A stretch of DNA of 35,676 bases from Bacillota bacterium (lineage in GTDB: Bacteria; Bacillota; Desulfitobacteriia; Desulfitobacteriales; Desulfitobacteriaceae): contig JAJZPA010000010.1 of the NCBI GenBank assembly GCA_021811425.1, forward strand, positions 1-35,676, given 5' to 3'. Position 1 is the first letter of the stretch. Every line of letters begins with the position of its first letter. The notes beneath the pieces were generated by a model. That model was not told the DNA's origin, ran no database searches, and saw only the letters and a program-made list of their open reading frames with translations. This document shows positions 3,242 through 16,500 of this stretch, piece after piece. The translations under genes and the position numbers were made by a program.

Positions 3242-3619
3242 ATGTCCAAGATTAATGAAATTTTAGAGACCGTCAAAGGTTTAACGGTGCTGGAACTGGC
3301 TGAATTAGTGAAAGCCTTCGAAGAGGAATTTGGTGTGAGCGCGGCGGCTCCGGTGGCCGTTGCTGCACCAGGGGCTGCCGCAGCGGCTCCTGCTGCTGTT
3401 GAAGAGCAAACCGAATTCGATGTCATTTTACTTGAGGCTGGCGCTTCCAAGATCAATGTGATCAAGGTTGTCCGCGAAGTAACGAGTTTGGGTTTGAAGG
3501 AAGCCAAGGATTTGGTTGATAGCGCCCCGAAGCCGATTAAAGAGAAGATTTCCAAAGAAGACGCTGAGGCATTAAAAGCTAAACTGTCTGGCGCTGGCGC
3601 AAAAGTTGAAGTGAAGTAA
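3242..3619 (+). CDS. rplL: 50S ribosomal protein L7/L12
   Basis: A 125-residue multicopy stalk protein that recruits translational GTPases. The N-terminal dimerisation domain (about 1-32) is followed by a flexible Ala/Pro hinge (about 36-58) and the C-terminal factor-binding domain with [35 protein letters not shown] precedes the ATG. The operon ends here with a strong terminator, whereas in most Firmicutes rpoB follows closely. Confidence 0.97.
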
Positions 3620-3634
3620 TAAATTCTGTATGCA

Positions 3635-3669
3635 AAGACAAGGTGCTCAGTGAGAGTGCCTTGTCTTTT
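3635..3669 (+). terminator. Rho-independent terminator after rplL
   Basis: A 14-bp stem AAGACAAGGTGCTC/GAGTGCCTTGTCTT with two G-U pairs and an AGTGA loop ends in a TTTT run. It closes the rplJL transcript and separates it from the accessory block. Confidence 0.88.
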
Positions 3670-3736
3670 CTCTGTTTGCTGGAAATTTCTTATTATGAGA
3701 GAGAAGCGGAAAGAAAGGGGATACGAGAAATGCTTA

Positions 3737-3988
3737 GTGCCCAAAACATTAGTGGCTCTGATTGCCCATGACAACAAAAAAACAGATATGATTCAGTTTG
3801 TTAAGGCATATCAGGCAGTGTTTGCGCAATGCCGTCTTATTGCTACTGGAACGACCGGACGGCGTATACACGTTGAAACAGGATTGGAGGTCGAGTGCTG
3901 CCAATCTGGACCTTTTGGAGGAGGTCAGCAAATCGGTTCGCGTGTGGCAACGGGAGAGGTCTTAGATGACACGATGACACTGTATTAA
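3737..3988 (+). pseudogene. mgsA: Truncated methylglyoxal synthase remnant
   Basis: About 83 codons from a GTG at 3737 (purine-rich AAAGGGG about 15 nt upstream) clearly match the N-terminal half of methylglyoxal synthase, which turns dihydroxyacetone phosphate into methylglyoxal. ALIAHDNKK, the phosphate-binding ATGTTGRRI and [11 protein letters not shown] align in order. The family has GGDQQ, where Asp (Asp71 in E. coli) is the catalytic base; here it is Gly. The C-terminal half, with further catalytic His and Asp residues, is missing: the frame stops soon after GEVLD. No remainder is visible before the lacI-type promoter. The ORF-track start at 3650 lies inside the rplL terminator and is unlikely. 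Confidence 0.8.
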
Positions 3989-4014: not shown

Positions 4015-4044
4015 TTGACAAATATAATATTTCTATGGTATTCT
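4015..4044 (+). promoter_or_regulatory. Promoter of the LacI-regulated catabolic operon
   Basis: TTGACA (4015-4020), an 18-nt spacer and TATTCT (4039-4044). The predicted start near 4051 lies directly at the edge of the double operator, so repressor binding would block initiation or promoter clearance. No other good promoter was seen before the downstream genes up to 11613. Confidence 0.7.
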
Positions 4045-4055
4045 TATAGCGTAAT

Positions 4056-4089
4056 GGAAAACGTTTTCCGGAAAACGTTTTCCGGAAAA
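4056..4089 (+). promoter_or_regulatory. Tandem LacI-family operators with a third half-site
   Basis: Two identical perfect 14-bp palindromes GGAAAACGTTTTCC abut at 4056-4069 and 4070-4083, followed by another GGAAAA half-site (4084-4089). The central CG and flanking A/T arms are typical of LacI-family sites and also resemble catabolite responsive elements. The location, just downstream of the promoter and 33 nt before a LacI gene, points to autorepression. I found no further copy elsewhere in the block. Confidence 0.88.
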
Positions 4090-4121: not shown

Positions 4122-5114
4122 ATGGTAACTATTAAAGACGTAGCGCGTTTGGCTGGTGTATCCATCTCAACAGTCTCTCGTGTTTTGAACAACAACTCTC
4201 ATCCTGTAAACTCGGAGACCAAAGAGCGTATTCTATCGGCCATAGAGGAACTTGGTTTTTATCCTAACGCAATAGCCCGTGGTCTACAGGCTAATAAGAC
4301 CAAAACTATTGGGTTGATTTTGCCTGATATTGGGAACCCCTATTATCCTGGAATTGTCCGAGGTGTGGAAGATGTTGCCCACGAATTGGGATATACTCTA
4401 ATTCTTTGTAATGCCGACCGTTCGAGAGAACGGACACAGGAATACGTACGAGTTTTACGGGAAAATCGGGTTGAAGGAATCATTTTCACGGGTGGCGGTA
4501 TTGCTCAAGATGCGCAGCAAGGGAATTTTTCTGAAAAGGATGCCGTGGCGACGGTTGTGATTGGAAAACACTGGTCGAATTTGCCTTCTGTCCAAGTTGA
4601 CAATGTTAAAGCAGCCCGGGAAGCTTGTGAACATTTGTTGAGTTTCGGTCACAGGCAAATCGCTACAGTCACCGGGCCGGAGAGCTCAACAACTGCCCGC
4701 GATCGTCTAGAAGGTTATCGGCAAGGGTTAGCAACTCTTGGCTTAACCGAACATCCTGAGTGGATTATTCTAGGCGATTTTGAGGTTGATAGTGGATACA
4801 GGGCGGTCGCTCAGTTGCCCAGACTGGGTCGGGAGGGTATAACAGCTATTTTTGCCCAAAATGATTTGATGGCCATTGGGGTGATTAATGCTCTCCAACA
4901 ACGAGGGATGAAGGTTCCGGATGATGTTGCCGTCGTGGGATTTGACGACATTCCTTTAGCTTCTTTTGTAACACCTAAACTGTCTACTGTTGCTATACCA
5001 GTTTACGAGTTGGGCATGACTGCTATGAAAGTCTTGGCAAAGCTCTTGGTTGGCCAGGAAACAGAGTCGGTTACCATTTTAGAGACAAAACTTGAGCTTC
5101 GCGAGTCCACTTAG
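4122..5114 (+). CDS. LacI-family transcriptional regulator
   Basis: A 330-residue repressor. The N-terminal helix-turn-helix is textbook (TIKDVARLAGVSISTVSRVL, residues 3-22), followed by the hinge region (NAIARGLQANKTKTIG, about 50-65) and a periplasmic-binding-protein-like effector domain with DIGNPYYPGIVRGVED, the domain-linking GFDDIPLASFVTPKLSTV and a typical C-terminus. It is the first gene of the operon it probably controls: the double operator lies in its own 5' leader. The effector is likely the imported substrate or a pathway intermediate. CcpA itself is an alternative given the cre-like sites, but the catabolic neighbours argue for a local regulator. Confidence 0.92.
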   Translation: MVTIKDVARLAGVSISTVSRVLNNNSHPVNSETKERILSAIEELGFYPNAIARGLQANKTKTIGLILPDIGNPYYPGIVRGVEDVAHELGYTLILCNADRSRERTQEYVRVLRENRVEGIIFTGGGIAQDAQQGNFSEKDAVATVVIGKHWSNLPSVQVDNVKAAREACEHLLSFGHRQIATVTGPESSTTARDRLEGYRQGLATLGLTEHPEWIILGDFEVDSGYRAVAQLPRLGREGITAIFAQNDLMAIGVINALQQRGMKVPDDVAVVGFDDIPLASFVTPKLSTVAIPVYELGMTAMKVLAKLLVGQETESVTILETKLELREST

Positions 5115-5158
5115 TCAAAATGGAGACTCGAGGTTATTGAGATGTAGGAGGTAAAGAA

Positions 5159-6010
5159 ATGGCAAAACGTCATAATTTATTGGAATGTGCGTACGTCGAT
5201 GCACAAGAATGGTTTAAGGAAACCGATACAGTTATGGTACCAGTTGGAAGTTGTGAAAAACACGGTGCTCACGTTCCTTTGGGGACGGATAGCTTCACGA
5301 CGATCAATGTTACAGAGAGGGCAGCTAAATTGGCTAATGTTCCTTACACGCCGCTAACGCCATTTGGTTATTCTCCTCACCATATGGGAAGAGAAGGAGA
5401 AGGAAGCGGCACGGTTACCCTTTCCGCCAATACCTATCGGGCAATGCTTAAGGATATCGCGCGCAGCTTAATCTTTCATGGCGCCAACAAGATCATCTTT
5501 GTGACTCACCATGGTTCCAACACCAAACCAATTGACGAGTTACTACGTCAGATCCGTTTGCAGACGGGAGCATTTGCTGCTTTTTATAAGACCCCGACCG
5601 AACGGGAATGTGAAGTTGTCAAGGGTATCCTGGAAGGACCCCCAGAAGAAACACCAGGCTGGCATGCTGGAGAAATGGAAACGGCGCAAATGATGGCCCA
5701 TGATATGAGCCTGGTAGACATGAGTCGCGCTGTGAATGACAGAGCCCATGCTCCACTCTGGATGGGACCGAACTTCTCCAAAAAAGATGGAACAATTACT
5801 GTCCAATTCCGCGGTTCAGAGAATATTTATGTACCTATGGAGCATCATGAATACTCAGACCACGCTACCATTGGTAATCCGTTCCGGGGCACTCCCGAAA
5901 AAGGCATTGCCCTTTTCGAGAAAGAAGCCGAGCATTTAGCAGCTTTTATCGAAGAAGTTAAAAAGTTCCCCTTCGAGGTCAAGAACCGCGAATTTAACGA
6001 AAGAGCCTAA
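5159..6010 (+). CDS. Creatininase-family metal-dependent hydrolase
   Basis: A 283-residue member of the creatininase superfamily, whose enzymes hydrolyse cyclic amides or carbon-carbon bonds in cyclic ketones using two metals. The signature VPVGSCEKHGAHVPLGTDSF holds ligands E33, H35 and D44. VTHHGSN (H118) and WHAGEMET (H169, E172) supply the other conserved positions. All key residues appear intact. Creatinine is an unlikely substrate beside an aldolase, epimerase and polyol-type dehydrogenase. The Thermotoga 3-dehydro-scyllo-inosose hydrolase IolN, which I recall as a member of this superfamily, is a better functional analogue. GTAGGAGGT precedes the ATG, 44 nt after the regulator gene. 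Confidence 0.85.
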   Translation: MAKRHNLLECAYVDAQEWFKETDTVMVPVGSCEKHGAHVPLGTDSFTTINVTERAAKLANVPYTPLTPFGYSPHHMGREGEGSGTVTLSANTYRAMLKDIARSLIFHGANKIIFVTHHGSNTKPIDELLRQIRLQTGAFAAFYKTPTERECEVVKGILEGPPEETPGWHAGEMETAQMMAHDMSLVDMSRAVNDRAHAPLWMGPNFSKKDGTITVQFRGSENIYVPMEHHEYSDHATIGNPFRGTPEKGIALFEKEAEHLAAFIEEVKKFPFEVKNREFNERA

Positions 6011-6029
6011 TGGTTATCTTTCGAAGAGG

Positions 6030-6061
6030 GTCAATCCGGGGAAAATGTCCCGGGTTGACCT
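6030..6061 (+). other. Intercistronic hairpin between hydrolase and aldolase genes
   Basis: A 12-bp stem GGTCAATCCGGG/CCCGGGTTGACC with one G-U pair and an 8-nt loop. No U tract follows, so an mRNA stabiliser or processing site is more likely than a terminator. It may set different levels of the two flanking genes. Confidence 0.6.
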
Positions 6062-6085
6062 CTAACGAAGAAGGAGTGAGTAGCA

Positions 6086-6673
6086 ATGGGCGATGTCGTT
6101 AAGGAGTTGCGCCAGGAGTTGGCCTCCATCACGCGTGAGCTTTTTCAGCGCGGTTTAAGCTCCGGAACCAGTGGTAATACCAGCGCTAGGATACCGGGTC
6201 AACCGGACCGTGTGTTGATCAAAGCCAGCGGAGTATGCTTCGGCCATTGTCAACCAGAGGATTTTGTGCTGGTTGACCTTGAGGGCAATGTTTTGGCCGG
6301 TGATAAAAGACCTTCCAAGGAGTACCGGTTCCACCTGGGAATCTATAAAGAGCGTCCGGAAGTACAAGCGATCGTTCATGGGCACTCTGCTTATGCCACG
6401 GCCTATGCCACAGCGAAGGGAGAATTACCTGTAGTGACAGCTGCAGCAGAGGCAGGTTTGAACAAAGTCGGTATCGTAGAATTTGCGGCGCCTGGGTCTC
6501 TGGAACTGGCAGACATGGTTGTTGATGCTTTTAAAGACCAGACGCTTAAGGCTGCGGTGTTGGTACGCCACGGATTTGTGACCGTTGGCCAGGATATTCG
6601 CAGGGCTTACTATCTGGGTGATGTCTTGGAGGATAATGCCAAGGTAGCTTGTCTCTTGGAACAAATAGGGTAA
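6086..6673 (+). CDS. Class II aldolase/adducin-family protein (fuculose-phosphate aldolase-like)
   Basis: A 195-residue zinc aldolase of the FucA/RhaD/AraD superfamily, which cleaves phosphorylated ketoses or sugar acids, epimerises ribulose 5-phosphate or decarboxylates 3-oxo acids. It shows the phosphate-loop motif SSGTSGNTSAR (25-35), the probable catalytic Glu79 in PSKEYRFHLGIY (FucA Glu73 equivalent), zinc ligands H98 and H100 in VHGHS, and H162 in LVRHGF. The chain is shorter than FucA (about 215), ending soon after the active-site part. It probably performs the carbon-chain cleavage or decarboxylation step. The product cannot be told from sequence. Confidence 0.87.
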   Translation: MGDVVKELRQELASITRELFQRGLSSGTSGNTSARIPGQPDRVLIKASGVCFGHCQPEDFVLVDLEGNVLAGDKRPSKEYRFHLGIYKERPEVQAIVHGHSAYATAYATAKGELPVVTAAAEAGLNKVGIVEFAAPGSLELADMVVDAFKDQTLKAAVLVRHGFVTVGQDIRRAYYLGDVLEDNAKVACLLEQIG

Positions 6674-6740
6674 TTTTTTTTAGGAAAATCTATTTGAAAA
6701 TTCTATCACTACATCATCTGATTAGTAAAGCAACTTATCT

Positions 6741-6793
6741 GTAAAAACGTAAGTGGCAATTACTGGTGGATGGTGTTGAAAACCCGTTTTTAC
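6741..6793 (+). other. Inverted repeat in the 151-nt aldolase-TIM barrel spacer
   Basis: GTAAAAACG (6741-6749) is perfectly complementary to CGTTTTTAC (6785-6793), enclosing 35 nt. The structure ends about 30 nt before the next ATG and close to AAAGGAGG. It could be a regulatory leader or processing site. The spacer is unusually long for this operon and has no ORF or clear promoter. Confidence 0.45.
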
Positions 6794-6824
6794 CCATGCT
6801 TTTGTTGTAAAGGAGGAATGTGCC

Positions 6825-7742
6825 ATGCAGACTTCCATTTATGAGTTTATGAAGGTTGGGGTAGTTCATTTTAAAGCATTTCCGGAAGTCGTAAACGGGA
6901 CTGGGCCGGTGGTTGAAACATTACGGAAAATCTGTGAAGACGATTTCTTTACCGCAGTAGAGATGGGAACGATCAAAGATATCAAGGCTCGAACCGAAGC
7001 AGCAAGATTACTTGACATTTCTGGGTTGGAAGTTGCCTATGCTCTGCAGCCGACTCTCTTTCCTGCGAAATTGAGCTTGAATCATCTTGATCCGGGCGAA
7101 CGGAAAAAAGCTATCAACGCTGTGATGAATGGTTTAAAAGAAGCTCATGATCTTGGGGCCACTTCAATCAGGATTCCAGCTGGCAAGGATCCAGGGGCTG
7201 AAAAACGGGAAGAAGCCAAAAAACTCTTAATCGATTCCTTTGCTCAAATTCTTGATAAAGCGAAAGAAATGGGCGATCCTCTGGTAACTTTAAAAATTTT
7301 TGATCGAGATATTGATAAGGAATCCCTCATTGGACCTTTTAGCGATGCGCTGGATATTGCCAAAGCACTAGCGCCCAGCTATGAAAAGTTTGGCTTACTT
7401 GCTGACTTATCCCACTTTCCCCTTCTTCGGGAGAAGCCGGAAGAGGCACTCCCACTGGTCAAAGATTATCTGAAAGCTTTCCATATCGGAAACTGCGTCA
7501 TGAATGACCCGCTCGATCTGCTCTATGGTGATTTACAGCCTCGTTTTGGTGTAAAAAACGGGGAGGTTAATATGCCGATGGTTAGGGATTATTATCGGCT
7601 ATTAGTCGATCTGGGCTTGATTGGACCGGAAAAACGGCCGATCATTAGCGCAGAAGTACGTCCGTTGCTTCCTGGGGAGACATCTGAGTTAATACTTGCC
7701 AATACAAAACGGGTCATTAAGGAGGCATGGGCATTAGCCTGA
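6825..7742 (+). CDS. Sugar phosphate isomerase/epimerase-family TIM barrel protein
   Basis: A 305-residue AP-endonuclease-2-type TIM barrel. Candidate metal ligands in the usual order are E46 (AVEMGTI), D194 and H197 in LLADLSHFPLL, H220 in FHIGN and E277 in SAEVRP. I could not place the usual mid-barrel Glu with confidence: the strand LVTLKIFDRD offers Asp instead. Family members isomerise or epimerise ketoses, keto acids or inosose derivatives (hydroxypyruvate isomerase, OtnI, IolE/IolI, IolO). It fits the isomerisation step between the dehydrogenase/hydrolase and the aldolase. AAAGGAGGAATG precedes the ATG. Confidence 0.82.
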   Translation: MQTSIYEFMKVGVVHFKAFPEVVNGTGPVVETLRKICEDDFFTAVEMGTIKDIKARTEAARLLDISGLEVAYALQPTLFPAKLSLNHLDPGERKKAINAVMNGLKEAHDLGATSIRIPAGKDPGAEKREEAKKLLIDSFAQILDKAKEMGDPLVTLKIFDRDIDKESLIGPFSDALDIAKALAPSYEKFGLLADLSHFPLLREKPEEALPLVKDYLKAFHIGNCVMNDPLDLLYGDLQPRFGVKNGEVNMPMVRDYYRLLVDLGLIGPEKRPIISAEVRPLLPGETSELILANTKRVIKEAWALA

Positions 7743-7775
7743 TTCAGGCTATTTGCTTGCTATGGAGGGAACAAG

Positions 7776-9002
7776 GTGACAGCAAAGTCCATTGCCATCA
7801 TCGTAACTGTTGATACAAAGGAGTTAGAAGCCAGATATCTGCATGAATTCATTAGCTCTCGGGGGTGGGATGCTCCGGTAATCGATGTCAGTACGCGTCA
7901 TCCCCATACGTTCCAAGTGGCGTTTTCGCGGGAAGAAGTCAGTCGCTCCGGCGGAGTTGAATTTGGAGACCTAGCTGCTTTGCGACGGGATGCTATCATG
8001 CAAACGATGGGTGGGGGAGCGGGCAATATTCTCAAACAACTCTATGCACGGGGACAATTGGCTGGAGTTTTGGCTATAGGCGGGAACCAAGGTACAGCAA
8101 TCGCTGCCATTGCCATGCGAACTTTACCGATCGGTGTACCAAAATTGATTGTCTCTACCGTCGCTTCCGGGAATGTCCGTCCTTATGTGGAGTATAAAGA
8201 TATCGCCATGTTGTTCTCTGTTTCAGACATTCTTGGGGGGCCCAATACAGTCAGTCGCACGATTTTGAGCAATGCTGCCGGAGCAGTCATGGGGATGGCC
8301 CTTAACGGAGAACCGCTGAAAGCTGGCGGGAAGCCCGTGATTTCTGTCACAGCTTTTGGTAATACGGATGCAGCAGTGACAGCTTCCCGTAAGCTCTTGG
8401 TCGAACAGGGTTATGAAGTTATAGCTTTCCATGCCTCTGGAGCGTCTGGTTCTGCCATGGAAGACATCATTGAACAGGGATTAATACAAGGAGTTCTCGA
8501 TCTTACGACCCACGAGTTGGTTGGAGAAATTTTTGGTCAAGACATTTACACGCCCTTGCGACCGCGTCTGGAAACTGCAGGTAAATTGGGGATTCCTCAG
8601 GTCATTGCTCCAGGGGGGCTGGACTATTTTTGCTTTGGTCCGGCAGAGAGTATTCCTGATGCTTTCAGAAAGCGAAAGACCCATTATCATAACCCGTATA
8701 ATACCAATGTGAGAACGACTAAGGAGGAATTGCTTAAGATTGGGGAGGTTCTGGCAGAGAAAGCGAATGCTGCTAAAGGTCCGGTTGCCATTCTGATTCC
8801 CTTGTTAGGTTGGTCGGAAAATGGCAGGTACGGCGGCCCTCTTTACGATCCAGAGGCTGATTCCGCCTTGGTAGAGGCTCTGGAGGACCATTTAGGGCCA
8901 GGAATTCGGTTGATCAAAGTGGAAGCGAATATTAACGATCCAATTTTTGCGCAGACAGCCGTTCGGGTTTTTCAGGAGTTAAACAAAAGCATGATTTTGT
9001 AA
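7776..9002 (+). CDS. Tm-1-like ATP-binding (UPF0261) family protein
   Basis: A 408-residue protein matching the UPF0261/Tm-1 family in length and motifs. The N-terminal Rossmann-like domain starts IAIIVTVDTKELEARYL and contains TMGGGAGNI (78-85), IGGNQGTAIA (101-110) and the conserved ASGNVRPYV. A second domain has SVTAFGNTDAAVTASR and GASGSAMEDIIEQG. The N-terminal domain of tomato Tm-1 binds ATP. The bacterial role is not established, though the family often sits in catabolic clusters. Here no sugar kinase is present, so an ATP-dependent step such as phosphorylation or ligation is a plausible but untested role. The GTG start is backed by GGAGGG 8 nt upstream. Confidence 0.86.
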   Translation: MTAKSIAIIVTVDTKELEARYLHEFISSRGWDAPVIDVSTRHPHTFQVAFSREEVSRSGGVEFGDLAALRRDAIMQTMGGGAGNILKQLYARGQLAGVLAIGGNQGTAIAAIAMRTLPIGVPKLIVSTVASGNVRPYVEYKDIAMLFSVSDILGGPNTVSRTILSNAAGAVMGMALNGEPLKAGGKPVISVTAFGNTDAAVTASRKLLVEQGYEVIAFHASGASGSAMEDIIEQGLIQGVLDLTTHELVGEIFGQDIYTPLRPRLETAGKLGIPQVIAPGGLDYFCFGPAESIPDAFRKRKTHYHNPYNTNVRTTKEELLKIGEVLAEKANAAKGPVAILIPLLGWSENGRYGGPLYDPEADSALVEALEDHLGPGIRLIKVEANINDPIFAQTAVRVFQELNKSMIL

Positions 9003-9018
9003 AAGGAGGCTAAAAAAT

Positions 9019-10095
9019 ATGAATTTTGAAATTCCGAATAAGATGAAAGCCCTTGTATTGTATGCGAAAGACGATGTGCGTATGGCCGAAAAGCCAGTGC
9101 CGAAGCCTGGCCCCGGAGAGGTGCTAATAAAGGTTGAAGCCTGTGGAATTTGTGGTACAGACGTAAAGATTATAACTAAGGGTATGCCTAAAATGCCCCC
9201 CTACGGTGATTTTACTTTCGGACATGAGTGGGCAGGGACGGTGGTAGCTTTAGGTGAGACCGTCGATGAATTTCATGTTGGAGATCGGGTTGCCATTGAA
9301 GCTCATAAAGGATGCGGCCGCTGTGATAATTGTTTAGCCGGGAACTATACAGCTTGTTTAAATTACGGACGTTTGGACAAAGGTCATCGCACCTCGGGAA
9401 TGACAGTAGACGGAGGTTTTGCGGAATACGCCGTACAGCATATTAATTCGATTTACAAGATTCCTGATAACATTTCATTTGTCGAAGCGACGTATGTAAC
9501 TACGGCCGGTTGTGCACTTTATGCCATTGATAAGGTAGGAGGCTATATTTCCGGCGACACCGTATTAATTATCGGGCCAGGCCCCATCGGACTGTCTGTT
9601 GTGCAGGGAGCCAAGGCACTAGGTGCCGACAAGATCATCTTGGTTGGTACGCGAGCCGACCGCTTGGCTAAGGGGATGGAATTAGGGGCGACCCATACCA
9701 TAAATATTCGTGAAGAGGCCAATCCGGTAGCTAAGGTGATGGAGATTACGGACGGAAAAGGAGCCGAGAAAGTATTCGAATGTGCCGGAAATACAGAATC
9801 TTTTGAGTTGGCAATCAAGTCCACCAAAAAAGGTGGTGATGTCTGCTTGGTTTCTTTCTACAAAGAACCGGTTACCGCAAATTTGGATTATGTCGTTTTG
9901 AATCAGATTACGTTATTTTCCGTACGTGGTGAAGGTAACTCCAATTGCAAAAGAGCCTTGTCATTGATGTCACAAGGGAGGATTGATGCTAAGCCGATCA
10001 TGACGCATACGTTCCCGCTGGAAGAATTCCATACAGGTTTAGACTATTTTGTTAATCGCAAGGACGGGGCGATGAAAGTAGTTATTATTCCGTAA
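9019..10095 (+). CDS. Zinc-dependent medium-chain alcohol dehydrogenase (sorbitol/threonine dehydrogenase-like)
   Basis: A 358-residue MDR dehydrogenase. It has the catalytic zinc motif ACGICGTD (C45) and GHEWAG (H69, E70). All four structural zinc cysteines are present in GCGRCDNCLAGNYTAC (C99, C102, C105, C113). The Rossmann fold has GPGPIG (185-190). The second strand ends LVGTRADR, lacking the acidic residue that usually selects NAD+, which hints at NADP+ use. It likely oxidises a secondary alcohol of a polyol or sugar acid. It lies 16 nt after the Tm-1 gene with AAAGGAGG, so it is tightly co-transcribed. The Thermotoga scyllo-inosose dehydrogenase IolM is a family relative with an analogous role. 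Confidence 0.92.
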   Translation: MNFEIPNKMKALVLYAKDDVRMAEKPVPKPGPGEVLIKVEACGICGTDVKIITKGMPKMPPYGDFTFGHEWAGTVVALGETVDEFHVGDRVAIEAHKGCGRCDNCLAGNYTACLNYGRLDKGHRTSGMTVDGGFAEYAVQHINSIYKIPDNISFVEATYVTTAGCALYAIDKVGGYISGDTVLIIGPGPIGLSVVQGAKALGADKIILVGTRADRLAKGMELGATHTINIREEANPVAKVMEITDGKGAEKVFECAGNTESFELAIKSTKKGGDVCLVSFYKEPVTANLDYVVLNQITLFSVRGEGNSNCKRALSLMSQGRIDAKPIMTHTFPLEEFHTGLDYFVNRKDGAMKVVIIP

Positions 10096-10167
10096 TTCCG
10101 ATTTTTGAGAATGGTAAAACGTGTTGGAAGTGTTATTTCAGAAAAATGCTAAAAGGGGGATAAAAAA

Positions 10168-11613
10168 ATGGCGGAAGTTGTAGTCAAGACAAATACACCC
10201 ATGAAATTAAATAACAAATTAGTTCACTTTGTCATTGGCATAGTTATTCTTCTGGGCTTCTTCTTTATTATACCCCAGCCTAACGGCTTAAAACCGGCGG
10301 CGATGTACACTTTCGGGATCATGATTACAACCGTTTACTGGTGGCTGACTGAAACATTACCTATTCCTATCACGGCCATGATGGTGCCCATCATGCTTCA
10401 TTTGATGGGTGTTCTCACCATTGACAAGACGATTACTCAGACCTTCGGGGACAGTTTCGTACCGTTTTTGATCGGCGTTCTGGCTCTTTCGGTTGCTTTT
10501 ACCAAATCCGGTTTGGGTAAACGGATAACCTATCTGCTGCTTTCAGTTTCAGGAACAAAAACCTATCGGGTTATCGGTATTTATCTCTTTGTGTCATTTG
10601 TAATTTCGATGTTTATTACAGATGTCGCCGTTGTTGCCATGATGTTACCCATCACTGTCGGTTTGTTGCAGTCTGTTGATGCCAAACCCGGAGAGAGCAA
10701 TTTGGGTCGGGGACTGATGATGGCCATCATGTTCGGTTCGACTCTTGGGGGGATATGTACACCTTCTGGGGTAGCTTCAAATGTGATTACGATGAGCTTT
10801 ATTACCAAAAGTGCAAAAGTGGGTATCACTTTCCTCCAGTGGACGGCAATCGCTACACCGATTTTCATAATCGTCGGATTGATTACGTGGTGGTTGATTT
10901 TAAAGATCTTTCCGCCGGAAATGAAAGAGCTCCCTCTCGGTGAAGAAACGATTAAGGGCGAATTGGCGAAAATGGGATCATGGACCGTTGAAGAGATAAG
11001 TACCTTGGTTATCTTTCTGGTGGCAGTTGTCCTCTGGCTTACCGGCCAATGGAATAAATTACCAATTGCCTTTGTTTCACTAGCGATCTTAGGATTACTA
11101 GCTATTCCGAAATATGGGGTTTTCAAAACATGGGGAGATGTAGAGAAACATTTGGAATGGGGTGCCTTATTGCTTGTTGTGGGCGGTTTTGCCCTAGGAA
11201 TAGCCGCAACCCAAAGCGGGCTGGCATCTTGGGTTGCCCTAAGAGCATTAAAACCAATGGCTGCATTGCCATTATTTCTGCAGCCCCTGGCAACTACCCT
11301 TTTAGTGGCTGTAGATTCACTTGGTTTTTCTAGTTTTACCGCTGCTGCCTCAGTTAACGTTCCTTTTATTATAGCCTACGCTCAGCAAAACGGTTTACCA
11401 GTTTTAACACTGGCTATGGCAGCAGGTTTTGCTTCCTCAACCCACTTCATTCTGGTTACCGAAAGCCCCTCCTTTGTGTTGCCATATGCCTTTGGATATT
11501 TTAGCTTTAAGGATCTATTTAAAATTGGGATTATTGTTACTTTGATTAGTGCAGTAGGAATCTCGGCCGGATTCATTTTAGCCGGAATGCCCGCTGGACT
11601 ACCACTGCATTGA
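10168..11613 (+). CDS. DASS-family (SLC13-like) anion transporter
   Basis: A 481-residue inner-membrane protein with about a dozen hydrophobic segments, matching the divalent anion:sodium symporter family. The start region reads WWLTETLPIPITAMMVPI (58-75), a strong family signature. Members import or exchange di- and tricarboxylates. Both substrate-binding SNT signatures look replaced: the first aligns at ITDVAVVAMMLP (150-161) and the second near SSFTAAA (388-394). The usual TPPN motifs are also altered (TPSGVASN, TESPSF). A divergent substrate or coupling ion is therefore likely. It is the probable importer for the operon. AAAGGGGG precedes the ATG. Confidence 0.88.
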   Translation: MAEVVVKTNTPMKLNNKLVHFVIGIVILLGFFFIIPQPNGLKPAAMYTFGIMITTVYWWLTETLPIPITAMMVPIMLHLMGVLTIDKTITQTFGDSFVPFLIGVLALSVAFTKSGLGKRITYLLLSVSGTKTYRVIGIYLFVSFVISMFITDVAVVAMMLPITVGLLQSVDAKPGESNLGRGLMMAIMFGSTLGGICTPSGVASNVITMSFITKSAKVGITFLQWTAIATPIFIIVGLITWWLILKIFPPEMKELPLGEETIKGELAKMGSWTVEEISTLVIFLVAVVLWLTGQWNKLPIAFVSLAILGLLAIPKYGVFKTWGDVEKHLEWGALLLVVGGFALGIAATQSGLASWVALRALKPMAALPLFLQPLATTLLVAVDSLGFSSFTAAASVNVPFIIAYAQQNGLPVLTLAMAAGFASSTHFILVTESPSFVLPYAFGYFSFKDLFKIGIIVTLISAVGISAGFILAGMPAGLPLH

Positions 11614-11711
11614 ACGATTTTTGAAGAGAGATTCTTTCACTTTTCCAGTTTTGTCGCTGCCTCCTTGTCCCACACCTAGCAGGTTCCCCGAGAAGAAAGA
11701 GGTTCCAAGGA

Positions 11712-13115
11712 ATGTTTAAGTCAAAACGGGGATTGGTCACCGGAAAAGACGATGTTTTTGTGCAAGTTCACGAGATTGAGTTACAGAAGTTAATTGGTGC
11801 CTTTACGAATCTTGATTTCCAAAAGCAGTTAGACATCAATCTCCCACTTTCAAGCCCCTGCTATCCTTTGCTCGAAGCATTCAATAAGTCCATGGAAAAG
11901 CGCGAGGCAGCTGGCGTTAAGGCTTTGAGAGATGTGAATTCCCGAGTCGAACGTATGGCCAACCTAACATCCATACGTGACATGGCGGAACATATCCTGG
12001 AACAGGCAAATCATCTCAACAAAATGGCTGCAGAAGCCGTGGAAATGGAAGCCGCATCAAGCCAAATTGCTAATTCGACCAACAACGCCTCTGCTTTCAT
12101 TGACCAATCAGTTGTCACTGGTATGTCTGGTGTAGAGAAAATTAAACAGGCGCTTTCTCTTGTCGAGGATTCCTTTGTGGACTTTCAGGAGGTAACTGTT
12201 CAAGCACGGGAAGTCCTAACCTCTATGGGGGAAATCGAGCAAATCGTGGGCGTAATTGCAGGCGTCGCAGAACAGACTAATCTCTTAGCCTTAAATGCTG
12301 CCATCGAAGCTGCTCGGGCAGGAGAACAGGGGAGAGGTTTTGCCGTTGTTGCCGACGAAGTACGTAAACTTGCCGAACACACGAAGACTTCTGTAGTTGA
12401 TGTGAGACTGAAGATTGGTAATTTGAGTCAAAACTCAGGCCAAACCGCCAACAAGATGTTGGCAGTGACCCAAACTATGCAGGGTGGGCGGAATACCTTG
12501 CATGATGCCGGCGCGGCAGTCGAACAAATCATGCAGAACGTACAAGCGGTTGCGGAAGACATTCGCCAGGTGGCAGCAGGAAATGAAGAACTTAGCGTTA
12601 CCGTTCAGGAGTTCAGCGGTCACATTTCGGCTTTGGCTCAATCAGCGGAGGTTACCAAGCGTTCTGTTGATGAGGCAGGCAGAGTTATTTACGATATTAA
12701 TCGGGAGTTAGCGGATCTACGCGATCAACGGATCGGTCAGACTCCAGAACTTGACTTGCTGGAAGCTGTAGCAATATGGAAAACAGATGACCATATACTG
12801 ATTTGGCACATCTACAATATGTTGCTAGGCTTCGAAAATCTTGAACTGGAAACGCTTGGAAGCGCAAGGGACAGTCGTTTGGGACGATGGATCAACAGTC
12901 CGGCTTCAGCTAGTTACCAATCAGAAATGTTGTTTAACGAGCTCAAGAACACTCACGTGCAGTTCTTTGACCTAGGCTGTAATGCAGCCAAGGCCTTGTT
13001 GCAAGGTGATCGGATGAAAGCTGAATATTTTGTGGAGCAAATGGTTCTTGCCTCCAACAAGGTTAACTACTTATTAGATGATCTGCAGGTTCTGGTCAAG
13101 GGCAATAGATCCTAA
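11712..13115 (+). CDS. Soluble methyl-accepting chemotaxis protein with C-terminal CZB-like domain
   Basis: A 467-residue cytoplasmic chemoreceptor with no transmembrane segment. The N-terminal 80-100 residues match no domain I recognise. The signalling hairpin is centred on [20 protein letters not shown] (about 186-205) followed by [16 protein letters not shown]. The tail resembles a chemoreceptor zinc-binding (CZB) domain: [13 protein letters not shown] (H361), RLGRW (389-393) and THVQFF (H415). By alignment to the DgcZ ligands H22, C52, H79, H83, the Cys falls at S388 and the last His at F419, so zinc binding is probably altered. It follows the transporter by 98 nt with no obvious promoter, suggesting co-expression and taxis tied to this metabolism. 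Confidence 0.86.
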
Positions 13116-13303: not shown

Positions 13304-13332
13304 TTGACGTTTTTGTATTGCCTTGGTATAAT
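13304..13332 (+). promoter_or_regulatory. Strong promoter of rpoB-rpoC
   Basis: TTGACG (13304-13309), a 17-nt spacer and a perfect TATAAT (13327-13332). The start would be near 13339, giving a leader of about 230 nt. This dedicated promoter explains how rpoBC remains expressed although separated from rplJL. Confidence 0.88.
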
Positions 13333-13568: not shown

Positions 13569-16500
13569 ATGTTCTATCCTGTTAAGGTTGGGACGCGGGA
13601 GCGCTGGAGTTATTCCAGGATCCGGGAAGTCCTCGACATGCCAAATCTAATTGAAATCCAGCAGAACTCCTATCGATGGTTTCTCGACGAGGGGTTGCGC
13701 GAAATGTTTCACGACATTTCTCCGATTCAAGATTTTACAGGCAACCTCGTTTTGGAATTTATCGATTATAGCTTGGGTGAAGCTAAGTACGAAGTTGAAG
13801 AGTGTAAAGAACGCGATGTAACTTATGCGGCACCCCTGCGTGTGAAGGTTCGCTTGATCAACAAAGAAACGGGTGAAGTCAAAGAACAAGAGGTTTTCAT
13901 GGGGGATTTCCCTCTAATGACGGATAAAGGTACCTTTATCATCAACGGGGCTGAGCGCGTCATTGTCAGCCAACTCGTGCGTTCTCCCGGGGTATACTAT
14001 GCGGAACATATTGACCCTTCCGGGAAGAAGCTTTACGGGGCCACGGTGATTCCCAATCGGGGGGCTTGGCTCGAGTTTGAAAGCGATGTGAATGACAATC
14101 TTTATGTGCGGGTGGATAGGACGCGGAAACTCCCTGCTACCATTCTGATTCGGGCGTTGGGTTATAGCAGCAATGGCCATATTCTCGAATTGTTCAATGA
14201 TCACTCGTATGTGCGGGGGACGCTGGAAAGAGATAACTCTGAATCGACAGAGGAAGCTTTGGTTGAGATTTATAAACGCTTGCGGCCGGGAGAGCCTCCC
14301 ACAGTTGATAGCGCCCGCTCCCTTTTAGAAGCACTTTTCTTTGATCCAAAACGCTATGATCTGGCTAAGGTTGGTCGTTATAAGCTCAATCGCAAATTAG
14401 GCCTGGATATTCCGATGGATATCCGCCATTTAACGAAAGAGGACATCATTGCCTCTATGAGACGCATGCTTAATCTCATGGAGGGTGATGGACATAAAGA
14501 TGATATTGATCATTTAGGGAATCGGCGTTTGCGTTCAGTCGGTGAACTTCTCCAAAATCAGTTTCGTATTGGCTTGTCAAGAATGGAACGGGTTGTCCGT
14601 GAGCGCATGACGATCCAGGATGTCGATGTGATCACACCCCAGGTGTTGATCAACATCCGTCCGGTTGTGGCGGCGATCAAGGAATTTTTCGGAAGCAGCC
14701 AACTGTCTCAGTTTATGGATCAGACCAATCCCTTAGCTGAATTGACCCATAAACGGCGTTTAAGCGCCTTGGGGCCAGGCGGTTTGAGCCGGGAGCGCGC
14801 TGGGTTTGAAGTTCGCGATGTGCATCATTCCCACTATGGTCGGATGTGCCCGGTCGAGACCCCTGAAGGTCCGAATATCGGTTTGATTGGCTCGCTCAGT
14901 ACTTTCGGGCGGATCAATGAATACGGTTTTATTGAAGCGCCTTACCGCAAAGTAGATAAAGAACGGCATATGGTAACCGACGAGATTCACTATGTGACAG
15001 CCGATGAAGAGGAGAAATATGTCGTCGCCCAAGCGAACGCTCCACTGGATAAAGATGGGGTATTCCTCGGAGAAAAGATCGACGCAAGGCATGGACCGGA
15101 TTTTGTCTTGGTCGCTCCGGAGCGAATTGATTATATGGATGTTTCCCCGAAACAAATGGTGTCCATTGCGACGGCTCTTATCCCTTTCTTGGAGCATGAT
15201 GATGCCAACCGGGCTTTGATGGGTTCCAACATGCAGCGTCAGGCAGTTCCGCTTTTACGGACGGATTCACCCTATGTGGGCACGGGAATGGAATACAAGG
15301 CGGCCAAAGATTCGGGTGTCTGTGCTATCGCCAAGAAGCCCGGCGTTGTAGAACGATCCACCGCATGCGAAATTATCATTCGCCATGATGGCGGAACCGC
15401 AGAAAAACACAAGCTCTTAAAATATCTGCGTTCTAACCAGGGAACATGCATTAATCAACGCCCTATCGTCATGAAGGGTGAGCGGGTAGAGGCTGGCCAG
15501 ATCGTGGCGGATGGACCTTCCACCGACCACGGGGAGTTGGCTTTGGGACGTAATGTTCTCGTCGCTTTCATGACTTGGGAAGGGTACAATTACGAGGACG
15601 CGATTCTTATCAGCGAAAAGCTGGTGCGCGAGGATTATTATACCTCGATTCATATTGAAGAGTATGAGGCGGATGCTCGGGATACGAAGCTTGGTCCGGA
15701 AGAAATCACTCGAGATATTCCGAATGTCGGTGAAGATGTGCTGAAAGATTTGGATGATCGCGGGATTATCCGTATCGGTGCGGAAGTACGCCCTGGGGAC
15801 ATCTTGGTCGGTAAAGTAACCCCTAAAGGGGAAACTGAGCTCACGGCCGAAGAACGTCTGTTACGCGCGATTTTCGGTGAAAAGGCTAGGGAAGTTCGCG
15901 ATACCTCGCTCAGGGTTCCCCATGGTGAGGCTGGAAAAATCGTTGATGTCAAAGTCTTCACCCGAGAGAATGGAGACGAACTGGCCCCTGGGGTTAATGA
16001 ACTGGTTCGGGTCTATATTGCTCAAAAAAGAAAGATTTCAGTCGGCGACAAAATGGCAGGGCGTCATGGGAATAAGGGTGTTATTTCAAGAATCATGCGC
16101 CAGGAAGATATGCCTTTTATGCCTGACGGAACGCCTATCGAGATAGTCCTTAATCCATTAGGAGTGCCTTCCCGTATGAATTTAGGTCAAATCATGGAGA
16201 CACACCTGGGCTTGGCGGCCAAGACATTAGGAATTCGTGTAGCAACTCCTGTTTTTGATGGGGCTTCCGAAGATGACGTGTTTAAGACGCTGGAGAAAGC
16301 CGGGCTACCAGGAAAAGGGAAATCCATACTATATGATGGACGCACGGGCGAACCATTTGATAGCCCGGTTACCGTTGGCTACATGTATGTGTTAAAACTG
16401 CATCATTTGGTTGATGATAAGATCCATGCCCGATCGACCGGACCATACTCACTGGTTACCCAACAGCCACTTGGTGGCAAGGCACAGTTTGGCGGCCAAC

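Follow-up and report, generated by a model that had tools for sequence, protein, structure and literature searches.

A conserved operon encoding a UPF0261 protein as a predicted acid-catabolic module in Bacillota

We analysed a 35,676-nucleotide stretch of DNA (the window; contig JAJZPA010000010.1, positions 1 to 35,676 of the forward strand, assembly GCA_021811425.1) from a Bacillota bacterium of the family Desulfitobacteriaceae and found a seven-gene operon that is very probably a conserved module dedicated to the catabolism of an acid. All seven genes (4122-11613) lie on the plus strand with gaps of 16-151 bp and, according to open reading frame (ORF) and Pfam calls, encode a LacI-family repressor (lacI), a creatininase-family hydrolase (Creat), a class II aldolase family protein (AldII), a xylose-isomerase-like TIM barrel (TIM), a UPF0261/Tm-1-like protein (Tm1), a zinc-dependent MDR dehydrogenase (MDR) and a DASS-family anion importer. 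In outline, we propose a LacI-repressed, self-contained catabolic module for which the best candidate substrate is a hydroxylated acid of the sugar type or a cyclic precursor of such an acid; the probability of this model as a whole is about 0.45. The pathway is apparently undescribed: the enzyme families are known, and the combination and the role proposed for UPF0261 are new. No characterised orthologue was found in NCBIfam, the PDB or open-access papers, and no paper on this gene set was found in the open-access literature (subscription papers and preprints were outside the scope).

Conservation of the operon and its operator

A preliminary description of the window had assigned these gene families and claimed that the genes are co-directional, closely spaced and governed by one LacI-type operator. 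This was borne out by the ORFs, the Pfam matches and the operator itself, which proved to be doubled (Table 1). Beyond the two copies at 4056-4083, the 3.2-Mb draft genome contains no exact copy of GGAAAACGTTTTCC, and a wider regulon was rejected on this ground. The palindromic operator at the promoter is conserved alongside the gene set, as in a LacI-repressed operon, the binding of the repressor being predicted from the sequence. Its core, GAAAACGTTTTC, lies upstream of lacI in most related loci; in two of them the ORF caller extends lacI past the core, which then lies at the ORF start, and locus L085 has a variant differing by one base.

To find these loci, TIM was used as a query against named genomes, and 12-20 kb around each match were inspected. 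Matches were obtained in Moorella mulderi, M. sulfitireducens, M. stamsii, Thermanaeromonas, Gracilibacter BRH_c7a and others, the named relatives of the window genome being Desulfitobacteriales-type and Moorella-type Bacillota. The order lacI-Creat-AldII-TIM-Tm1-MDR-importer is identical in Moorella and Thermanaeromonas, and Gracilibacter matches it through MDR, with importer genes nearby. The lacI orthologues that head the operon in these three groups are 59-72% identical, Creat orthologues show 83-89% identity in all Bacillota operons and 70% in Thermus, and MDR orthologues 71-84% in the other Bacillota operons. Thermus is a separate case, in another phylum and with another gene order: plasmids of Thermus brockianus and T. 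thermophilus carry the five enzymes together with the tripartite tricarboxylate importer TctCBA, rearranged as Creat-Tm1-AldII-TctCBA on one strand and GntR-MDR-CBS-TIM on the opposite strand. The Tm1 gene of T. thermophilus AA1-1 is shortened and adjoins a transposase.

Among 399 genomes sampled from the phylum, TIM (at least 70% identity) was found in 11, Tm1 (at least 65%) in the identical 11, and Creat (at least 80%) in those 11 and in genome G341; these counts and those below are not independent, given the shared ancestry of related genomes. The next-best homologues in the same sample fall to about 46% (TIM), 46% (Tm1) and 60% (Creat). Within 15 genomes of the order, Creat (full-length or, as in G057 at a contig end, a fragment) and Tm1 occur in the same seven, all with a TIM that has lysine at position 157 (K-type, see below), and in none of the six that lack a K-type TIM. 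Candidatus Dichloromethanomonas and G063 have TIM without Creat and Tm1; MDR is present in the former. Because the gene content recurs across many genomes with the same operator, and because the genes co-occur, we conclude that the grouping is not due to chance. The check called for by the preliminary description, co-occurrence of the families under the same operator, thus holds across the relatives, and supports its suggestion of a single pathway, apparently undescribed and here seen to be conserved, that acts on an imported acid.

The importer differs between loci: DASS in L022, L077 and L078, DASS together with TctCBA in L095, and TctCBA in most relatives. Since these two types are interchangeable, an organic anion is the probable substrate.

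Table 1 Features of the operon and its control region in the window
Feature	Coordinates	Strand	Basis and remarks
Sigma-70-like promoter	4015-4044	+	TTGACA-18-TATTCT, TG before -10; consensus match only
Double LacI-type operator	4056-4083		Two abutting perfect 14-bp palindromes GGAAAACGTTTTCC (4056-4069, 4070-4083)
LacI-family repressor (lacI), first gene of the operon	4122-5114	+	PF00356, PF13377
Creatininase-family hydrolase (Creat)	5159-6010	+	PF02633, E 2.3e-52
Class II aldolase family protein (AldII)	6086-6673	+	PF00596 Aldolase_II, E 4.7e-50
Xylose-isomerase-like TIM barrel (TIM)	6825-7742	+	PF01261; Lys157 replaces the metal-ligand Glu
UPF0261/Tm-1-like protein (Tm1)	7776-9002	+	PF06792, PF23189; GTG start
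Zinc-dependent MDR dehydrogenase (MDR), Tdh/IolM-like	9019-10095	+	PF08240, PF00107
DASS-family sodium-coupled anion importer	10168-11613	+	PF00939; TIGR00785 219 bits, cut-off 198.6
MCP chemoreceptor, possible last gene of the transcript	11712-13115	+	PF00015 signal domain; weak CZB match

Predicted reactions of the enzymes

In the proposed route, the substrate would enter through a secondary importer for anions (DASS in the window, TctCBA in other loci), and Creat would open or deacylate it. The zinc MDR would oxidise a secondary hydroxyl to a ketone, TIM might move or epimerise the carbonyl, the UPF0261 protein could activate the keto acid, perhaps by phosphorylation, and AldII would cleave a C-C bond by aldol cleavage or decarboxylation to give a central three-carbon intermediate. 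In the Moorella-type loci L022, L023, L030, L077 and L078, a fructose-1,6-bisphosphatase gene lies downstream of the operon (FBPase_3 identified in L077, the others by ORF cluster or position); its presence would be in keeping with growth on a three-carbon product.

Creat belongs to the creatininase superfamily (PF02633, 178.2 bits; gathering cut-off 31.3) and has the E-x-H...D metal-ligand pattern when aligned with creatininase (3a6h); its score of 88.2 bits against the creatininase equivalog TIGR04448 is below the cut-off of 235. Second copies, 87-89% identical to the window Creat, directly adjoin TctC/TctA in L118, L120 and L027. In L084, the same operator precedes a Creat gene that is followed by an ABC importer. 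As copies of Creat accompany alternative importers, they probably act on the imported compound, and the odds that hydrolysis is the first step are about even. On this point the preliminary description, in which import is followed by oxidation and then by ring opening, is probably mistaken. In L118 and L120, genes for an AXE1-type esterase and a DUF1232 protein adjoin the second Creat copies.

The AlphaFold model of TIM (pLDDT 90.8, pTM 0.90) has TM0416/IolO as its nearest solved fold, with 22% identity. In known members of this fold, such as D-tagatose 3-epimerase and hydroxypyruvate isomerase, the position equivalent to 157 is occupied by a metal-ligand glutamate. This glutamate is present in all 24 relatives analysed (33-46% identity; E-type) and in Hyi, YgbM and UlaE of E. 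coli, whereas in the pathway clade Lys157 takes its place in all 23 sequences. The clade keeps Asp194 and Glu277 and, except in two sequences, His220; Gln238 (for His) and Arg279 (for Lys) covary with Lys157, and a few other residues occur at position 279 among relatives. In a tree of 47 sequences, the K and E types were split by a single change with a support of 100/100. The Lys157 clade is new, and these substitutions suggest that its chemistry is probably altered. The E-type genes are found next to those for D-2-hydroxyacid dehydrogenases, glycerate kinase and glyoxylate carboligase, and elsewhere next to an FGGY kinase and a class II fructose-1,6-bisphosphate (FBP) aldolase, indicating that the ancestor of TIM was probably hydroxypyruvate-isomerase-like and belonged to sugar-acid metabolism. 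Two proteobacterial metagenome-assembled genomes (MAGs) have a K-type TIM together with TctA/TctC, an IlvD/Edd dehydratase, an aldehyde dehydrogenase and a thiamine pyrophosphate (TPP) enzyme; this context, too, is one of acid catabolism. In L140 (5745-7775) an E-type barrel is fused to a Cgl0159-type domain, and in L139 (6072-8210) an E-type TIM lies in a long ORF.

UPF0261 proteins are found in bacteria, archaea and land plants, and tomato Tm-1 is a virus-resistance protein. To our knowledge, no enzymatic activity is on record for this family, and we found no pathway for UPF0261, Tm-1-like proteins, Saro_1862 or apionate in the open-access literature. Tm1 scores 183.8 bits with PF06792 and 239.2 bits with PF23189 (cut-offs 27), and its fold matches 3wrw/9mpy. 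Among its relatives, structures have been solved for tomato Tm-1 and for the Novosphingobium protein Saro_1862 (9mpy), which has acetovanillone bound and shares about 35% identity with Tm1. In all contexts inspected bar one haloarchaeal locus, Tm1 has a partner from a family of known or probable C-C lyases: class II aldolase in the window, the DapA family in L088, L090 and L096, and a PF09370-type protein in Azospirillum, Sinorhizobium, Gluconobacter, Streptomyces, Rubrobacter, Thermomicrobium and Haloterrigena. Since such neighbours recur, we infer that Tm1 prepares or joins C-C cleavage. That UPF0261 is an activating enzyme ahead of the lyase is a tentative assignment with the odds somewhat against it. 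A broader version, unlikely as it stands, would see UPF0261 proteins as a new enzyme family, kinases or the like, whose members activate keto acids for cleavage by varied lyases, the operon as a complete undescribed acid pathway, and TIM as an enzyme that gained a new reaction by the change from Glu to Lys.

Comparison with known pathways and alternative substrates

The preliminary description had pointed out that the hydrolase, the MDR and the TIM barrel recall the Thermotoga inositol route (IolN, IolM, IolO), which in T. maritima also includes IolG. If the operon were a variant of this route, it would act on a cyclitol acid or ketone: an IolM-like enzyme would carry out the oxidation, a diketone hydrolase resembling IolN the opening, and an IolO-like barrel the epimerisation. 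The three broad families (MDR dehydrogenase, creatininase-family hydrolase, PF01261 barrel) are indeed common to both, and the solved fold nearest to TIM is that of IolO. Related clusters with Tm1 and Creat (group B, see below) feed pentose-phosphate enzymes, two of the group B loci have ABC or TRAP-type importer genes, and the TPP enzyme beside the K-type TIM of the two proteobacterial MAGs has IolD as its best NCBIfam match, albeit with 150 bits against a cut-off of 715. However, the window proteins reach only about 28% of the NCBIfam equivalog cut-off for IolN (67.5 of 245 bits), 47% for IolM (211.2 of 450) and 8% for IolO (23.8 of 300), and TIM has its metal-ligand Glu replaced. The operon has an anion importer, an aldolase and UPF0261, and contains no Gfo/Idh/MocA dehydrogenase; as stated earlier, there is no IolG-like dehydrogenase among the ORFs at 4122-13112, the part of the genome that was searched. 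Membership in the Thermotoga route was therefore rejected on the equivalog scores, and such a variant is very improbable. The four-carbon acid-sugar route (otn/ltn, ygbJKLMN) appears to be a better template, as a pattern of roles in which the substrate need not be a tetronate. Threonate is degraded in four steps by LtnD, OtnI, OtnK and OtnC, the decarboxylase having an Aldolase_II domain (PMC12540250), and these roles have one-for-one counterparts here: both systems combine a dehydrogenase, a TIM-barrel isomerase, an activating enzyme, a class II aldolase-family enzyme and an acid importer in one operon. Taken literally, the comparison would make the operon a threonate/erythronate-type pathway with replaced parts: MDR for LtnD, TIM for OtnI, UPF0261 for the DUF1537 kinase, AldII acting as OtnC to give dihydroxyacetone phosphate and CO2, and the additional creatininase-family hydrolase opening a lactone. 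AldII has the PSKE motif of YgbL/OtnC and not the SSD of UlaF, and of three E. coli references it is closest to OtnC (31.6%, 98 bits; FucA 90, UlaF 84). The neighbours of the E-type TIM relatives are those of a hydroxypyruvate isomerase, the family of OtnI. The operon contains no DUF1537 kinase, and as PF07005 was undetected in 8 of 18 operon-bearing genomes, we rejected the possibility that such a kinase, encoded outside the operon, serves the pathway. On the other hand, AldII, although of the right Pfam family, reaches 126 bits against an OtnC equivalog cut-off of 250. TIM, which is not orthologous to OtnI, aligns with OtnI/Hyi at about 21-24% over short stretches (E 0.04-0.05; YgbM E 0.054) and has Lys for the first metal-ligand Glu; the kinase role of UPF0261 is hypothetical, and no evidence specific to a tetronate was found. 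We consider this literal version unlikely. The earlier aldolase-class assignment stands, the Glu of AldII being of the aldolase/OtnC type. A UlaE/UlaF-type ascorbate route was rejected, since AldII has the aldolase Glu, as in OtnC and FucA, and not the epimerase Asp of UlaF.

Two further readings concern the substrate. Creatininase is a cyclic amidohydrolase, and the substrate might be a nitrogen-containing cyclic acid (a lactam or hydantoin-like compound) that is opened by Creat before the carbon chain is oxidised and cleaved. RidA-family proteins, which in some cases have two or three domains, adjoin TIM, the cluster or the importer genes in the Gracilibacter-group loci L026, L027, L029 and L118, and in loci of the Thermanaeromonas type TctA is followed by an NCS2 permease. 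Yet neither is part of the window operon or of most relatives' operons, the conserved core has no deaminase, transaminase or nitrogen-regulation gene, and the aldolase and TIM families are carbohydrate enzymes, which makes a nitrogenous substrate improbable. Alternatively, the substrate might be a ketone acid of the aryl or alkyl type, and UPF0261 would then take part in C-C cleavage beside the carbonyl instead of serving as a kinase, in line with the acetovanillone bound in 9mpy and with the probable C-C lyases that partner UPF0261 in other genomes. The acetovanillone is possibly incidental, however, and Tm1 is only about 35% identical to Saro_1862; the remaining four enzymes are typical of polyhydroxy acids, and no aromatic-degradation genes lie near the operon, so we regard this as quite improbable. 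Several points also weigh against our own model of a hydroxylated-acid module. Its substrate, intermediates and activities are all deduced from gene and protein sequences. The RidA-type proteins and the NCS2-family permease adjoining some clusters hint at nitrogenous substrates, and the gaps between the AldII scores for OtnC, FucA and UlaF are small. TIM lacks the residue used by the metal-dependent isomerases of its fold and may not isomerise. The sole bacterial UPF0261 structure binds acetovanillone and not a sugar acid or nucleotide, and a fold search with Tm1 returned its own family and weak Rossmann-type matches such as UDP-GlcNAc 2-epimerases, and no convincing kinase relative, by which a recognisable kinase fold was rejected.

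The conserved operon in the culturable Moorella and Thermus gives UPF0261 defined upstream and downstream partners, its repressor offers a readout for the inducer, and Lys157 poses a clear mutational question. Identification of the substrate would open the function of the Tm-1 relatives, including the plant fusion, to testing.

Genomic setting and related clusters

The window genome is a draft of 3.23 Mb in 269 contigs, 84% complete. The operon is flanked by rplL (3242-3619) and rpoB (starting at 13569), so that almost 10 kb separate the two genes, in contrast to about 460-550 bp in two relatives of the same family (L153, L154). The operon therefore looks like an insertion into the ribosomal/RNA polymerase locus. 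In the same-genus genome G040, whose contig starts 357 bp before rpoB, DNA similarity begins at window position 13323, 3' of all operon genes, and 111 more bases lie upstream on that contig. Between rplL and the operon promoter, a truncated methylglyoxal-synthase-like fragment (3650-3988; PF02142, 26.8 bits) is perhaps a remnant of the insertion. At the other end, the chemoreceptor gene begins 98 bp past the importer gene, and no terminator-like site was found within 11613-11712. The receptor may sense the substrate of the operon; its membership is doubtful, as the gene was not seen among the relatives' operons.

UPF0261 and PF09370 proteins are paired in rhizobia, actinobacteria and haloarchaea and fused in plant Tm-1. 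As in the window, UPF0261 there lies in a cluster of catabolic appearance, next to a protein of the TIM-barrel or aldolase type, whereas the window partners are a class II aldolase and a PF01261 barrel, with a creatininase-family gene present. The group B clusters of other Bacillota (L088, L090, L096) share UPF0261 (38-41% identity), the creatininase-family hydrolase (58-59%) and, in some, MDR; they differ in having a DapA-type aldolase instead of the class II aldolase and other importers, and no K-type TIM was seen in them. A transketolase subunit and RpiB are encoded downstream in L088 and L096, and L088 also has a PHP protein, a transaldolase and a class II FBP aldolase. A third creatininase-family group (36-40% identity) occurs in L080, L086 and L092-L094, with LeuA/HMG-lyase-type DRE-TIM enzymes in L080 and L092, TctC/TctA in several loci, and, in L094, a DASS gene and genes resembling SucC/SucD.

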